Source of the DNA: Rhizoclosmatium globosum
Lineage: Eukaryota; Chytridiomycota; Chytridiomycetes; Chytridiales; Chytriomycetaceae
Direction: 5' to 3'
Length of the DNA stretch: 64,000 nt
Assembly: GCA_002104985.1 (NCBI GenBank)
Contig: MCGO01000094.1
Location: 1 to 64,000, forward strand
In this document: piece by piece, positions 2,254 to 8,556 of the stretch
Numbering within the stretch: position 1 is the first letter of the stretch
Layout of the letters: each line of letters begins with the position of its first letter
Position numbers and translations under genes: made by a program
The notes under the pieces: model-generated
Database searches by the model: none
Told to the model about the DNA's origin: nothing
The model's input: the letters and a program-made list of their open reading frames with translations, nothing else

Positions 2254-3783
2254 ATGAGTACTGTGACAAATAATACCACACATACTCCTTTGGAAACCGC
2301 AGTTGGTGTTGCTCTCGCTGTCATATCGGGGTTATTCTTGGGATCATCGGTCGTGCTGAGAAAAAGGGGGCTTATCGAAATTGCCGCAGACGGACATAAC
2401 GTCGCAGAGGGATCGACTGCTTATCTGAAGAATAGATTCTGGTGGGCGGGAATGGGACTACGTGAGTTTCATTTTGATTCCACGACTTGCGGAAGTTAAA
2501 ACATTTGACAAAAGAAGCTATAGGAGAAATAAGTAATTTTGGGGCTTATGCCTTATGCCCAACAGTAATTGTAACGCCAATGGGGACATTAGCAATTGTC
2601 TTCAATTCTCTCCTCTCCAACTATTTACTTAAAGAGAAATTGTCCTTTATTGGTAAAATGGGCTGTGGAATATGTATATTTGGAGTATTGGAAATAGTTG
2701 TACATGTCTTGACAGATCAACAAGTCTTGACGGTGCCTATATTCATGGCATACGTCACCAGCACATGTATACTATACTTATTGTTGTAAAAAACTTGCTT
2801 ATTTGCACAAATAGCATTCTTGGTTTATTCGGCGTTTATTACCGTCCTTGTCTTATTTCTCAAGTTTTATGCTGAGCCCCGATATACGAAGAAGACACCA
2901 TTCGTATATATTGCAATGAGCTCCTGCGGAGGCTCTTATTTGGTTTTGAGCGCCCAGGGAGTTGGCTCAGCGATTGCCTATTCAACGAAAAATTGGACAA
3001 CTGATAACCAGTTCTTGCAATGGCCACTCTATCCTCTTATTCTGTTCATGGTTTTGGCGGTTATATACCAGATTACTTATCTTAATAAGGTTAGCTGGTT
3101 TTGTAAGACAGCTATCAATGACGGAAATTTAGGCTCTCGCTGTAAATTCAAGCGCAGTTATATACCCAATCAGTTTTGTATGCTTCAATGTCATGACTTT
3201 GATTTCAACGGCTTTTCTCTATTTTAAGCTTCCAGTTGATAACGTTGAGGATGGAATCAGTGTTGTGGTTGGGTTGTTGACGATTATTGGCGGCGTTGTT
3301 TTGTTATCTATCAGCAAGAATGAATCGAAGATGATAATAGAGCAGGATAGTTTAGACGATATTTCAACTGAGAAGTTGCTTCGAGGTTCAACCAAAAATA
3401 TTGCAGAAGGCGATCTTCCAGTATCGTATGGCATGATATCAATCAACGAAGCGTCAACTGAAGTTTTAAGGTTGGATCGCAACAGGCTTCGTATTGGAGT
3501 TGAGGCATCACTTGATGCATTTGATCCGAAACTTGGTCTCAGTCCGCTGGCGGGGCAGTCTAGTGTGTTTGAAGCGAATTCTATGAGAACTGTCTCGATT
3601 GATACGGGATCTGATCAAAGTAGGAATCAGTCACTGAAGATGGAAGCATCAGATGTCCCAACTGCTACGCGTGAACAAACGAAGCCCCCAATCGCACATT
3701 TGAATTCACTCAAGTATACTAGCGTTAACCGTTATATGATATTATTTATTATTTACTATATATATTGTGTTGGTGTATTATGA
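2254..3783 (+). CDS. NIPA-type transporter-like protein (copy 2), 3' end interrupted by retrotransposon
   Basis: Paralogue of the upstream gene with identical exon lengths: 2254-2461, 2515-2766, 2815-3089, then 3133 onward; introns of 53, 48 and 43 nt. The membrane core is intact and very similar to copy 1. A copia-like element sits in the last exon after base 3722. As the DNA stands, translation runs 20 codons into the left LTR and stops at 3783, giving about 461 aa and losing the conserved end of the cytosolic tail. The severed tail lies beyond the element at 8557-8698, and the frame is continuous across the empty site, so the gene was intact before insertion. Membrane function could survive because only the tail end is lost. 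Confidence 0.85.
3718..3722. repeat. Target site duplication, left copy (ACTAG)
   Basis: The five bases ACTAG precede the left LTR and recur at 8552-8556 after the right LTR. A 5-bp duplication is typical for Ty1/copia integrases and fixes the element's ends. Confidence 0.85.
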
Positions 3784-3813
3784 ATAGATTTAATTCTTTC
3801 CCTCAATCTCTTG
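3723..3813 (+). repeat. Left LTR (91 bp)
   Basis: Identical to the right LTR over all 91 bases. It begins CGTTAACC and ends CTCTTG, so the canonical TG...CA termini are absent. It is very AT-rich, with TATA-like stretches that could serve as the promoter. It also supplies the final codons and stop of the interrupted host gene. Confidence 0.9.
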
Positions 3814-3814
3814 C

Positions 3815-3831
3815 GTTATCAGCACCAAGCA
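3815..3831 (+). other. Candidate primer-binding site
   Basis: Within 1-2 bases after the left LTR lies GTTATCAGCACC, which shares TATCAG with the initiator-Met-tRNA primer sites of many copia elements. The match is short and could be chance. Confidence 0.3.
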
Positions 3832-3855
3832 ACCCAAACCCCTCAAACACCAACG

Positions 3856-6800
3856 ATGCTAGCCACGTACGGCCAACCAAAGGAGTCTCAGAAACTCAGC
3901 CAATCAAACTACGCGACCTACTTCCTGAAGTGGCTCGAAGAAATCAAAAAGACTCTCGGCAACCTCGGCCTCCCCTCCGGCTCAGCCCTCTACCAAGTCA
4001 CCCCCCTCGCACCTGACTCAGTACCAATCAACTCCCTCGTCATGTTTCTCAATGTCGACATCATCCCTGTCTCGAAAGCGCGCGTGTATGGAACTGAGTT
4101 GGTTGCAGGTGCCACCCTCAAAACTGTCAAAGACCCCACCTTCGAACAGGAAATGAAGTACAACGGCATTGTCGCGCACTACGAAACAGCAAAAAGCCGT
4201 GTCTGGGGAACCATCAAAGATTTCACAGACGACACGCTCTTCACCATCTTCAAAAACTCAGCCGGACCAAAACAAAACATCGTCGATGGAATTGTCGCCC
4301 TTCAAAAACATTGTCAAATCTCTCACCAATCAAACATCAATGCAGCTAAAAATACTCTTCAATCTCTACGCCTCGCTCCAAACAAACATCCCCTCACTCT
4401 CCTCCAAAATATTCAAACCCAAATCCTCATTCTTGCAGACCTCGGGTACCCTGACTCAACAAACCTATCGCTATGCACTGAATTCAATCTGTCAAACATC
4501 AACAATTTCTTCACTGGACTTACCGACGATGACCTTGCACGCTCAATGACTGCGCTCATCTACTCAAAGGCTAAGAAGGACCCTCTTGATTTTGCCGAAG
4601 TATTGAGCATTGTTGCAGAAGACGAACTTGGGTCACGTGGTCGAACAGCGCACAAGGATCTCTTTGGAACTGGAAATGGTCGTTCGTTTGTTGCCAAGGA
4701 TGTCGCATCTCTCGAGGAACAAATTGCGGCTCTGACTAGAGCGTTTGCTGCCACCCGCCATGTCAGCCACAATCCAGTGAGCACTGTTGACTCTCTCAAG
4801 CTCTTTGTTGTTGGTTTCCCAGAAGGCACTACCTCTGAATTGCTTCGCGCCCATTTCAAAGGATGTGTCCGAGTTGACGTTGTGAAGTCGAAGAACACGG
4901 GAAAATCAATTGCCTTCATCAACTACGACAACGCCTCAGCCGCAACTGCTGCCTTGAATACACCCTTAACTTTTGAACAATCTCAAATTGTTATTCGTCG
5001 TGCATTCAATAAAGCTTCTACCGCTTACCCGTTGACAGTCCCTATTGCAGCAAAACAAGTATTGTACAAACCAAAGCCTATTATTGCATACCTTGATTCC
5101 GGTTCAGAAAAACATTTAACCCGCTTTGATGACCTTCTACTTAACAAATCAAAATGCAAGCCATCAAGAATACAGGGCATTGCACCTGATGCTGTCATAG
5201 TGGGAAGTGGGATTCAGGGTGATTTGAAAATTGAAGACTCCAGTTTGACTCTCAAAGATGTGGAACATGTGCCATTTTCTACAGAAACACTTGTGTCAAT
5301 ATGGAAGCTCCTGTGCGAAAAATTGGACGTATTCTTTGATCACCAAACAATGACTGCATATGTTGGTAAAATGAAGGATGGTGTGTTCAATGTTACTGCT
5401 CGTGCAAAAGGCGTGGACGGCCTCTTTCACCTTACTCTTGACTCTCCAACCACTCAACACCAGCTTGACCATGATCCAAGTATCAAAGCCTTGCTTGGTA
5501 CAACATTTCCCCGTGTCACACTACGGACATGGCATGAAAGGTTTATGCACGCGGGCATTGATCAAATTTTGAAAACAGTTCCTGCTGTCCATGGTCTCTC
5601 ATTTGCTGGGTCAGACAAAGAGTTCTTCTGTGAGACGTGTGTTATGGCCAAAATGCCCAGACTCCCCTACAACAAATCTGGATGGACTGCCAGCAACCTT
5701 CTTGACACTCTCATTATTGATGTATTCTTTCCAGAAAAGGGAAACCCCTCTCGAGATGGTCATACTTGTATGCTGGGTGTCATGGTTCCATCTATTCACT
5801 TCAAAATTTGTTATGGACTGTTCAACCACACTGCGAAAGAAGTTGTTAAATTCTTGAAACTGGCTATTGCGTATCTTGAATCATTCTCCACTGAAAAAGT
5901 CCAAAATATCAGAATGGATCCATCAGGAGAAGCAGAAAGCAAATTGATGCATGAAGCATGTGCTGAACTGTCGAAGACTCTCCAAATTACATGTACAGAT
6001 GCACACAACCAGGATGGGCACTTAAACGGGTACTTTAAAGTCATGATGGAAAGAGTCCGCGCAAACATTATTCAAACAGGAAAGCCAATGGATTTCTGGC
6101 TGAATGGCGCACTCTATCATACCTTTGTTGACAACCGTACTATGCACGGAAACAAAACAAAAACCCCAGTTGAACTGCTCACTGGAAAGAAGCCACAAGT
6201 AAAACATTGGAGAACCCTCAACTGTGTTGCCTATCCACGTATCCTCCCAAAACATATCAAAATCACTGATGAGAATATTGATAAACCAGGAATCTACTGG
6301 AAAACTGGACCTCGCGCTGTGCGAAGTACATTTATTGGTTATGGTAATTATGATGGTCACCCAGTTCAACGTATGGGATGGATGTTCCTCACAGAAGACG
6401 GAAGAACCATCTACTCACGCGATGGGTATTTCTATGAAACATGTTTCCAATTTGAGGACATTCAAGGAAAGCAACACGAATTGATTCCGGCTGTTCGGTG
6501 GGCCGATCATCATGATGATTCTGCAGACGAAGACTATATTACTATGCCATTGGAATGCTCAATTGAAACACTTGAAGAAGCTGCGACAAATAGTGACATC
6601 TTGATTCCTACCCCTGTACCTTTAAAAACCCCATCAACCCCTCCCCCCACTGAATCCCTCTGTGAAGAATTCTTCACTCCATCGTCCACCCCCACACAGT
6701 ATGAATCTGATGGAGAATATATCCCCACAACACCAACCCCTACCTCAGAGTTACCAACAAGGAGATCAACCCGAAATACAATACAAGCTCAGCATTATGA

Positions 6801-8466
6801 CTCTGCCACTGGAAAATATTACTCTCTTGTATCGCGTAAGGCTGAAATTACAGTGACGGAAGCTCTCAAAAGTGCTGAATGGATTGCTGCCTTTGGAAAA
6901 CACCACAAGAAACTCGACAATGCGAATGCCTATCAGTTTAAACTCAAGTCAGAGGCTACTAGTCCTATTGTGAACTTGTTCTATGCCCTTACTGAAAAGC
7001 AAGAAGAAGACTCTGGTGTCTTTGAACCATATGTGCGAGCCATTGCAGACGGAAGTTCGCAAAAGCTGTGTGATGTTGGCCAAGTGTATGTTACAACCCC
7101 AGACGTGGAAACCAACAAGATCTTTTCCATCCATGTCACCCAGAGAGGTATGAATACACGAAAGGTTGATGTCAATGGCGCTTTCCTCCAAACACCAAAC
7201 AACCCAGACCGACCAGTCTTTACGTATATTCCAGAAGGATTCCCACTTTCAGAAGGAGTCTCTCGTCATACTCACTGTATTCAATGGTTGAAAGTCATCA
7301 ATGGACAACGCGACGGATCCTTCCTATTTGCAAACCATCGAGATGGACTATTCCGTGAATATGGTTTTGTCCAATGCCCCTCAAGCCCAGCACTGTGGAT
7401 CAAACAACTGACAGATACTGAACATGAGAAGATTCTCTTCATGGAGTGGTTTGCAGACGACGGCGAATTAGCACATGACCCCGATTGTCTTGCAGAAGCA
7501 GACAAATTCCTTGCCTGGTTGAATGAACGACTTCCGATAACCATCAAAGATATTGTGGGCACTATTATTGGATGCCGAAAGACTTACACTGAAGGATGCT
7601 TTGATATGGATCAAGAAGCCTATATTCTGGACTCCTGCCTTCCCTACCAGACAAACAAGCTCATTAAAAACAAAACTCCATGGAACAACGGGCTAGATAT
7701 GAAGGAATTTGACAACGTAGAAACTGAGTCTGACGTGTCAATGAACGGAATACCATACCAAGAAGCTTTTGGCACCCTCCTAACTCTACACAAAACCCGT
7801 GCCGATATTCTATACACTCTCAGTAAACTTGGACAACATGTTAAAAACCCGCAGCAAATTCACTGGAAAGCCCTTCAACATTTGTTAGGATACTTGAATC
7901 GAACCAGTGGAAAAGTTCAACGATTTAGAAAGTCTCAAGATGGCATTGTCAAGTTGATTGGATACACGGATGCTGACTTCGCTGCTGACAACAACACTCG
8001 AAAATCGCGAACTGGAATTGTTGCCTCAATAGCTCAGGGAACAGTATCTGCCTCATCAAAACTCCAAAAAACAGTAGCAGACTCAACTGTTGCAGCTGAA
8101 ACAACTGCAGCTGTCTCTGGATCAAATGTCTTCATCTACCTCAACAACATTCTGAAATGGCTTGGGTACAATGACCCTAACCCAACTGACCACTACTGTG
8201 ACAACCTACAATCAGTCACAAACGTTATCGAAGGATCTGGGCGACACAGAACACGACACCTGGATCTACAGTACATGGTTCTGAAGGACAGGCACCAAAA
8301 CAAAATCATCAGCTTCAAATGGTGTGGAACAGACAGCAACAAATCAGATATTATGACAAAACCCCTACGCTTTGTGAAACATGAACGTGCCATTATGGAA
8401 TTGGGAATTGTGGACCGGGACTCAAAACAAAATACCACTTCAGCCCTCTTTGCCAAAGTCCGTTAA
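3856..8466 (+). CDS. Copia-like Gag-Pol polyprotein with RRM-like domain
   Basis: A single frame of 1,536 aa from the first ATG; non-ATG codons extend it back to the LTR edge. Order: UBN2-like Gag region (about 1-300); RRM-like fold at about 314-385 with an RNP2-like LFVVGF and RNP1-like GKSIAFINY; aspartic protease DSG at Asp414; integrase HHCC zinc motif from Trp559 (WHERFMH ... CETC); integrase core with first Asp in LIIDVF, second at Asp688 (RMDPSGE) and Asn724 where the catalytic Glu is expected; reverse transcriptase with FADD at 1199-1202 in place of YVDD; RNase H with TDADFAAD, the ETTAA segment and CDN; C-terminal DIMTKPL like other copia ends. No CCHC knuckle is present in Gag, so the RRM may take over RNA binding (inference). 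No internal stop. Confidence 0.93.
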   Translation: MLATYGQPKESQKLSQSNYATYFLKWLEEIKKTLGNLGLPSGSALYQVTPLAPDSVPINSLVMFLNVDIIPVSKARVYGTELVAGATLKTVKDPTFEQEMKYNGIVAHYETAKSRVWGTIKDFTDDTLFTIFKNSAGPKQNIVDGIVALQKHCQISHQSNINAAKNTLQSLRLAPNKHPLTLLQNIQTQILILADLGYPDSTNLSLCTEFNLSNINNFFTGLTDDDLARSMTALIYSKAKKDPLDFAEVLSIVAEDELGSRGRTAHKDLFGTGNGRSFVAKDVASLEEQIAALTRAFAATRHVSHNPVSTVDSLKLFVVGFPEGTTSELLRAHFKGCVRVDVVKSKNTGKSIAFINYDNASAATAALNTPLTFEQSQIVIRRAFNKASTAYPLTVPIAAKQVLYKPKPIIAYLDSGSEKHLTRFDDLLLNKSKCKPSRIQGIAPDAVIVGSGIQGDLKIEDSSLTLKDVEHVPFSTETLVSIWKLLCEKLDVFFDHQTMTAYVGKMKDGVFNVTARAKGVDGLFHLTLDSPTTQHQLDHDPSIKALLGTTFPRVTLRTWHERFMHAGIDQILKTVPAVHGLSFAGSDKEFFCETCVMAKMPRLPYNKSGWTASNLLDTLIIDVFFPEKGNPSRDGHTCMLGVMVPSIHFKICYGLFNHTAKEVVKFLKLAIAYLESFSTEKVQNIRMDPSGEAESKLMHEACAELSKTLQITCTDAHNQDGHLNGYFKVMMERVRANIIQTGKPMDFWLNGALYHTFVDNRTMHGNKTKTPVELLTGKKPQVKHWRTLNCVAYPRILPKHIKITDENIDKPGIYWKTGPRAVRSTFIGYGNYDGHPVQRMGWMFLTEDGRTIYSRDGYFYETCFQFEDIQGKQHELIPAVRWADHHDDSADEDYITMPLECSIETLEEAATNSDILIPTPVPLKTPSTPPPTESLCEEFFTPSSTPTQYESDGEYIPTTPTPTSELPTRRSTRNTIQAQHYDSATGKYYSLVSRKAEITVTEALKSAEWIAAFGKHHKKLDNANAYQFKLKSEATSPIVNLFYALTEKQEEDSGVFEPYVRAIADGSSQKLCDVGQVYVTTPDVETNKIFSIHVTQRGMNTRKVDVNGAFLQTPNNPDRPVFTYIPEGFPLSEGVSRHTHCIQWLKVINGQRDGSFLFANHRDGLFREYGFVQCPSSPALWIKQLTDTEHEKILFMEWFADDGELAHDPDCLAEADKFLAWLNERLPITIKDIVGTIIGCRKTYTEGCFDMDQEAYILDSCLPYQTNKLIKNKTPWNNGLDMKEFDNVETESDVSMNGIPYQEAFGTLLTLHKTRADILYTLSKLGQHVKNPQQIHWKALQHLLGYLNRTSGKVQRFRKSQDGIVKLIGYTDADFAADNNTRKSRTGIVASIAQGTVSASSKLQKTVADSTVAAETTAAVSGSNVFIYLNNILKWLGYNDPNPTDHYCDNLQSVTNVIEGSGRHRTRHLDLQYMVLKDRHQNKIISFKWCGTDSNKSDIMTKPLRFVKHERAIMELGIVDRDSKQNTTSALFAKVR

Positions 8467-8551
8467 CCGTTATATGATATTATTTATTATTTACTATATA
8501 TATTGTGTTGGTGTATTATGAATAGATTTAATTCTTTCCCTCAATCTCTTG
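8461..8551 (+). repeat. Right LTR (91 bp)
   Basis: Identical to the left LTR and flanked by ACTAG. Its bases 4-6 (TAA) serve as the stop codon of the gag-pol frame. The bases directly upstream are not purine-rich, so the plus-strand primer site is unclear. Confidence 0.9.
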
Positions 8552-8556
8552 ACTAG
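8552..8556. repeat. Target site duplication, right copy (ACTAG)
   Basis: Perfect copy of the five bases preceding the left LTR, followed directly by the host reading frame. Confidence 0.85.

Follow-up and report, generated by a model that had tools for sequence, protein, structure and literature searches.

The first 64,000 nucleotides of the forward strand of contig MCGO01000094.1 from the chytrid fungus Rhizoclosmatium globosum (GenBank assembly GCA_002104985.1; this whole stretch is "the window") contain an intact, recently inserted Ty1/copia-type long terminal repeat (LTR) retrotransposon. This element probably belongs to a distinct Copia group in which Gag consists of a capsid followed by an RNA recognition motif (RRM), without a zinc knuckle, and in which the RRM serves as the nucleocapsid (NC). 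The features of the window element that bear most directly on this reading are as follows.

3856..8466 (coding 3856-8463), + strand: single gag-pol frame of 1536 amino acids (aa), with its stop codon within the 3' LTR
3856..4665, + strand: capsid (CA) region, residues about 1-270
4783..5010, + strand: RRM domain (profile match and predicted fold), occupying the place of the nucleocapsid knuckle
4801..4818, + strand: RNP2-like strand LFVVGF, aligned in relatives
4900..4926, + strand: RNP1-like strand GKSIAFINY, aligned in relatives
5089..5310, + strand: protease region with motif LDSGS; its match to Pfam Pol_BBD is weak (19.9 bits; cut-off, 27)

Identity of the RRM and selection on it

The original prediction had taken LFVVGF and GKSIAFINY for the two signature strands of an RRM and had proposed structure prediction as a check. 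Profile matches and the resulting model confirm that the RRM is real. Scored as sub-regions against RRM_1 (PF00076), whose curated cut-off is 20.7 bits, all five families described below pass, with 30.8 bits for family A (which includes the window element), 30.6 for B, 24.5 for C, 44.3 for D, and 36.3 for E. The predicted structure, modeled for the window's domain only, has the beta-alpha-beta-beta-alpha-beta fold and drew 390 Foldseek matches at E ≤ 0.001. An aromatic residue is retained in RNP2 in five of six sequences and at one of the two RNP1 places in all six, and in every one of the six the net charge of linker plus RRM lies between +4 and +9. In family E, the linker ahead of the RRM is arginine rich.

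RRM codons are under purifying selection. The ratio of nonsynonymous to synonymous substitution rates (dN/dS) in the RRM is 0.095 between the family B copies (128 codons; dS 0.148), which are damaged elsewhere in pol. It is 0.227 and 0.302 for the window element against L009 and L010 (dS 1.5 to 1.9), 0.276 against L007 (dS 2.3), and 0.315 between L009 and L010, where changes are few. The capsid part is under stronger constraint than the RRM (dN/dS 0.106 and 0.071); across protease and integrase (PR-IN), dS was saturated, and hence no ratio is given.

Families that carry the RRM

The RRM carriers are a group of five divergent families in this genome and one metagenome relative, so that the search for relatives with the same block, suggested together with the original prediction, was positive. 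The families are A (window element, L009, L010, and L019), B (L007 and L011), C (L012 and L013), D (L015, L067, and L068), and E (L016, L017, L020, and L022). Members of all five, as well as the metagenome protein P0004, carry the RRM between the capsid and a DSG/DSA protease motif. Fragments included, there are at least 36 RRM places (at least 11 in A and B together, 19 in E, 4 in D, and 2 in C). P0004 matches family C with 47% identity across 42% of the pol query, and both it and a second pol relative, P0035, were recovered by searches with the family C pol and with a pol profile. A protein search with residues 1-480 of the window polyprotein scored 7990 candidates, none of them a relative. 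At E ≤ 0.1, none of the 16 non-group Copia proteins that were scanned matched RRM_1.

Phylogenetic analysis was based on a 62-row alignment of protease, integrase, and reverse transcriptase (RT). A quick tree of 30 rows separated the seven group rows from all others by a single branch (Shimodaira-Hasegawa-like approximate likelihood ratio test, 99). A more careful tree of 23 rows, from which four long-branched rows and three others had been removed and which is unrooted and has no outgroup, did the same with support of 100/100, the bootstrap not being fully settled. Within the group, D pairs with E, A pairs with B, and C clusters with P0004 and P0035. RRM-to-RRM scores track these pairs: 54 bits for A-B, 33.0 bits for C-P0004 (best shuffle, 9.7), and 21 bits for D-E. 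The simplest reading is a single acquisition of the RRM, in the group's common ancestor.

Several further features were seen in these and other sequences. Family E polyproteins contain an in-frame 60-bp tandem repeat between integrase and RT that greatly lengthens the frame (in L016, at 3307-5041, 28.9 copies with 100% matches); long frames of this type reach 1902 aa (L021) and 3313 aa (C101). Elsewhere in the genome, RRM frames of ~170 and ~320 aa recur with near-equal scores on C6, C75, C98, C191, C288, and C384, and perhaps represent a non-LTR open reading frame 1 (ORF1) or a gene family. RRM exons score equally on contigs C68/C79, C85/C388, and C25/C208/C378, which suggests retention of several haplotypes or duplicates in the assembly. 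Among metagenome Copia-type polyproteins, P0015 has a SET domain and P0007 a chromodomain (weak in P0022). RRM matches in giant viruses were treated as generic RRMs.

Absence of a zinc knuckle

A CCHC nucleocapsid knuckle is usual, though not universal, in Ty1/copia elements; to our knowledge, Ty1 has none. The window element lacks it as well, as had been noted from the sequence: the strict CCHC pattern occurs in none of the six frames of the element or of 16 related loci but in three of three control loci, and the window Gag has only three cysteines in 410 residues. A knuckle upstream in relatives, named beforehand as a finding that would count against the idea, was thus looked for in the related loci examined, and none was found. 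For these loci, the six-frame scan also rules out a knuckle hidden in another frame.

Genome-wide, we counted modules at 98 places matching RVT_2, the RT profile (11 of 109 rows were dropped as second pieces), searching as far as 8 kb upstream for an element RRM and as far as 5 kb upstream for a CCHC match. An RRM was found upstream of 22 places, a CCHC match upstream of 10, both upstream of none, and neither upstream of 66, the underlying knuckle scan being weakly sensitive.

A possible nucleocapsid role

Copia Gag usually ends in a zinc-finger NC that binds RNA. According to the available excerpts of PMC11835246, capsid assembly in Drosophila Copia depends on the NC, whose zinc finger lies inside the shell together with RNA, and Gag without the NC assembles only if RNA-carrying subunits are added. 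Since the RRM of the window element follows a linker and sits in the NC's position, it most likely binds the element's RNA and starts assembly. In such a scheme, the RRM would hang from the capsid by its linker, inside the shell, and its beta-sheet face would bind the full-length RNA of the element. This binding might initiate capsid assembly and package the genome, a job done in Drosophila Copia by the zinc-finger NC. The proposal that an RRM replaces the knuckle as a distinct packaging design therefore holds for the fold, the slot, the relatives, and the missing knuckle, while packaging by the RRM is a role that we infer by analogy.

It is possible, and we suggest it tentatively, that the history went further: a deep Copia clade may have swapped its zinc-knuckle NC once for an RRM that recognizes the element's own RNA by sequence, with heterogeneous nuclear ribonucleoprotein-like packaging and assembly, and with an integrase that passed from Glu through Asp to Asn as clean 5-bp duplications continued.

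If the nucleocapsid reading is correct, the RNA-binding module of Copia Gag is exchangeable, and the group offers a natural experiment on what packaging needs, sequence recognition or mere RNA glue.

Alternative explanations

Chance resemblance or a functionless, decayed remnant is an extremely improbable explanation of the RRM. It could appeal to the weak RRM scores of P0004 and family C and to the faster divergence of the RRM than of the capsid (the window element and C371 are 49% identical in the RRM versus 75% in residues 1-255), but it is difficult to reconcile with the family D score, the Foldseek matches, purifying selection, and a frame that is intact in recently inserted copies. Chance similarity is ruled out by the profile scores and Foldseek matches together with RRM-to-RRM scores above those of shuffles, and a single decayed copy by the multiple copies, the RRM places in other families, and purifying selection. 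Repeated acquisition from host RRM genes, on the D/E branch and independently on the A/B/C branch, is improbable, although most cross-branch RRM pairs score no better than shuffles (for instance, D-A, 7.7 bits; D-C, 6.3; best shuffle, 8.2). The carriers group together and share an identical slot, B-E (13.5 and 13.9 bits) and B-C (15.7 and 14.6) score above all shuffles of the same searches (best, 11.2), and the window RRM matched no host RRM in its own genome at E ≤ 0.01 (12 candidates examined). We also consider it unlikely that the RRM works in protein binding or RNA export, docking the element on a host factor for RNA processing or transport, with the RNA packaged by basic tails or linkers as in elements that have no knuckle at all. 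The partly changed RNP1 and RNP2 aromatics, the frequency of Copia proteins without a detectable knuckle, and the arginine-rich linker of family E would suit such a role; the aromatics that are retained, the position of the RRM in the NC's place, and the fact that RRM and knuckle were never found together at the 98 RT places argue for a nucleocapsid instead.

Several observations weigh against an RRM nucleocapsid shared by descent across the group. RNA binding by the domain is a prediction, and some RRMs bind protein. The first RNP1 aromatic is Ile in the window family (KSIAF; the Phe at the second place is retained), and family D has Val at the RNP2 aromatic position. The family C RRM scores 20.3 bits within the whole protein, just under the cut-off that it passes when scored alone, and that of P0004 scores 14.6 bits by Pfam, also under it. 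Two of the seven group rows do not display the domain: L016, the row for family E, starts downstream of the RRM, which is present in its sister copies L017, L020, and L022, and P0035 starts inside the protease, with the RRM region out of view. The tree was built without this genome's own CCHC-bearing Copia elements, and host RRM genes are a conceivable source of separate captures. Finally, 66 of the 98 RVT_2 places have neither module detected, and zf-CCHC (E ≤ 0.1) is found in only 3 of 12 canonical Copia proteins, one of which, P0039, starts after Gag; elements therefore evidently manage without either, and absence of a knuckle is on its own weakly informative.

Element structure and insertion history

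The remaining features of the element and its borders are listed below.

3718..3722, no strand: left copy of the target-site duplication ACTAG, identical to the five bases at 8552-8556
3723..3813, + strand: 5' LTR, 91 bp, 100% identical to the 3' LTR
3814..3826, + strand: likely primer binding site CGTTATCAGCACC, 13 bases, adjoining the 5' LTR
5515..5655, + strand: integrase N-terminal region; weak GAG-pre-integrase match (24.6 bits; cut-off, 28.4)
6025..6027, + strand: third catalytic position of integrase, Asn (AAC) for Glu, from alignment and codon
7450..7461, + strand: RT catalytic motif FADD, from alignment
8461..8551, + strand: 3' LTR, 91 bp
8552..8556, no strand: right copy of the target-site duplication ACTAG

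The window protein has the Ty1/copia order of Pol_BBD, gag_pre-integrs, and SH3_retrovirus, with RT and RNase H placed by alignment; Pol_BBD passes its own cut-off in L007, L009, L010, L011, and L012. At E ≤ 1, the window protein gave no match to RVT_2, a profile that was detected in families C, D, and E. A Copia-type capsid fold appears in a VIA second look at the Gag model; Foldseek alone gave nothing significant for this model, its best match being the PNMA2 capsid (E = 1.9).

The element boundaries are right because the host flanks, joined over one ACTAG, restore a reading frame that matches the C-terminus of the neighboring paralogue in the window. Three further copies of the window family, in differing flanks, have their own 5-bp target-site duplications (CAGTA in C29, GAAAC in C223, and CAAAC in C377), as expected of Ty1/copia insertions, and LTRs 97.8 to 100% identical to the window's. 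The full 1536-aa frame is kept in three copies, the window's among them. Separate duplications at four insertions, near-identical LTRs, and intact frames thus indicate that the element has inserted repeatedly and recently.

The LTRs are only 91 bp long; they start with CGTTAACC and end with CTCTTG, without the usual TG...CA ends. The 13-base motif after the 5' LTR occurs 17 times in the genome, three times beside Retrotran_gag_2 matches (C235, C169, and C416), which makes it likely that one primer site serves two unlike Copia groups. No tRNA primer was found at the three motif places outside the families that were read; two further places outside the families are C45:9406 and C236:305. The genes at 1383-2135 and 3133-3783, presumably NIPA-like, are tandemly duplicated and transporter-like, and the element interrupts the second near its end.

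Integrase third catalytic residue

At the alignment position of the DDE integrase's catalytic Glu, families A and B have Asn, family C, P0004, and P0035 have Asp, and families D and E have Glu. Among the other alignment rows, all 39 that are not gapped here have Glu; another 14 rows and two of the genome's own fragments have a gap. Gly follows directly in seven of seven group rows, versus 1 of 39 others (P0025). Asn was present at every A and B locus examined where the motif was found (the window element, L007, L009-L011, and L019). Because family A has inserted recently and left clean 5-bp duplications, either its integrase works with Asn, or another residue substitutes, or the integrase of another element acts in trans. 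The Asn-bearing integrase thus poses a separate and sharp biochemical question.

Comparison with known systems

Compared with Ty1/copia elements that have a CCHC NC, such as Drosophila Copia, the group described here has an RRM instead and no NC zinc knuckle, and its integrase has Asn (A and B) or Asp (C) where theirs has Glu. This genome also has Copia elements with a CCHC knuckle (C39, C80, C323, C360, C277, C279, C334, C389, C380, and C204). They share host and superfamily (RVT_2) with the window group, but their knuckle lies 2.3 to 3.1 kb upstream of RT, and no element RRM was found upstream. Long interspersed nuclear elements (LINEs) are not known to have a capsid, protease, or DDE integrase and, unlike the window element, are non-LTR elements. 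Their ORF1 proteins are likewise retroelement RNA-binding proteins with an RRM, with or without CCHC, according to excerpts of PMC4120745.

No Copia Gag with an RRM was found in the accessible portions of the open-access literature on RRMs in LTR/Copia Gag (including PMC3605345 and PMC11011659), and the term "RRM" is absent from the available main text of a fungal LTR survey (PMC3248453), a choanoflagellate survey (PMC6875170), and the Troyka paper (PMC12440569). The closest case found is the RRM-like domain in the LTR retrotransposon Gag of vertebrate metaviruses (Ty3/gypsy, for example Gypsy-30_Ami) and in domesticated PNMA genes, as described in the excerpts of PMC11011659, which state that its RNA binding remains to be demonstrated. 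There, the domain lies N-terminal of the capsid, with the NC after it (RBD-CA-NC), whereas the window RRM follows the capsid, in the place of the NC, and no NC knuckle is present; moreover, those elements are Metaviridae of vertebrate hosts, and the window group consists of Copia-type elements. If the RRM of the window group does act as a nucleocapsid, the two cases together would make repeated use of RRMs by LTR elements a testable pattern.
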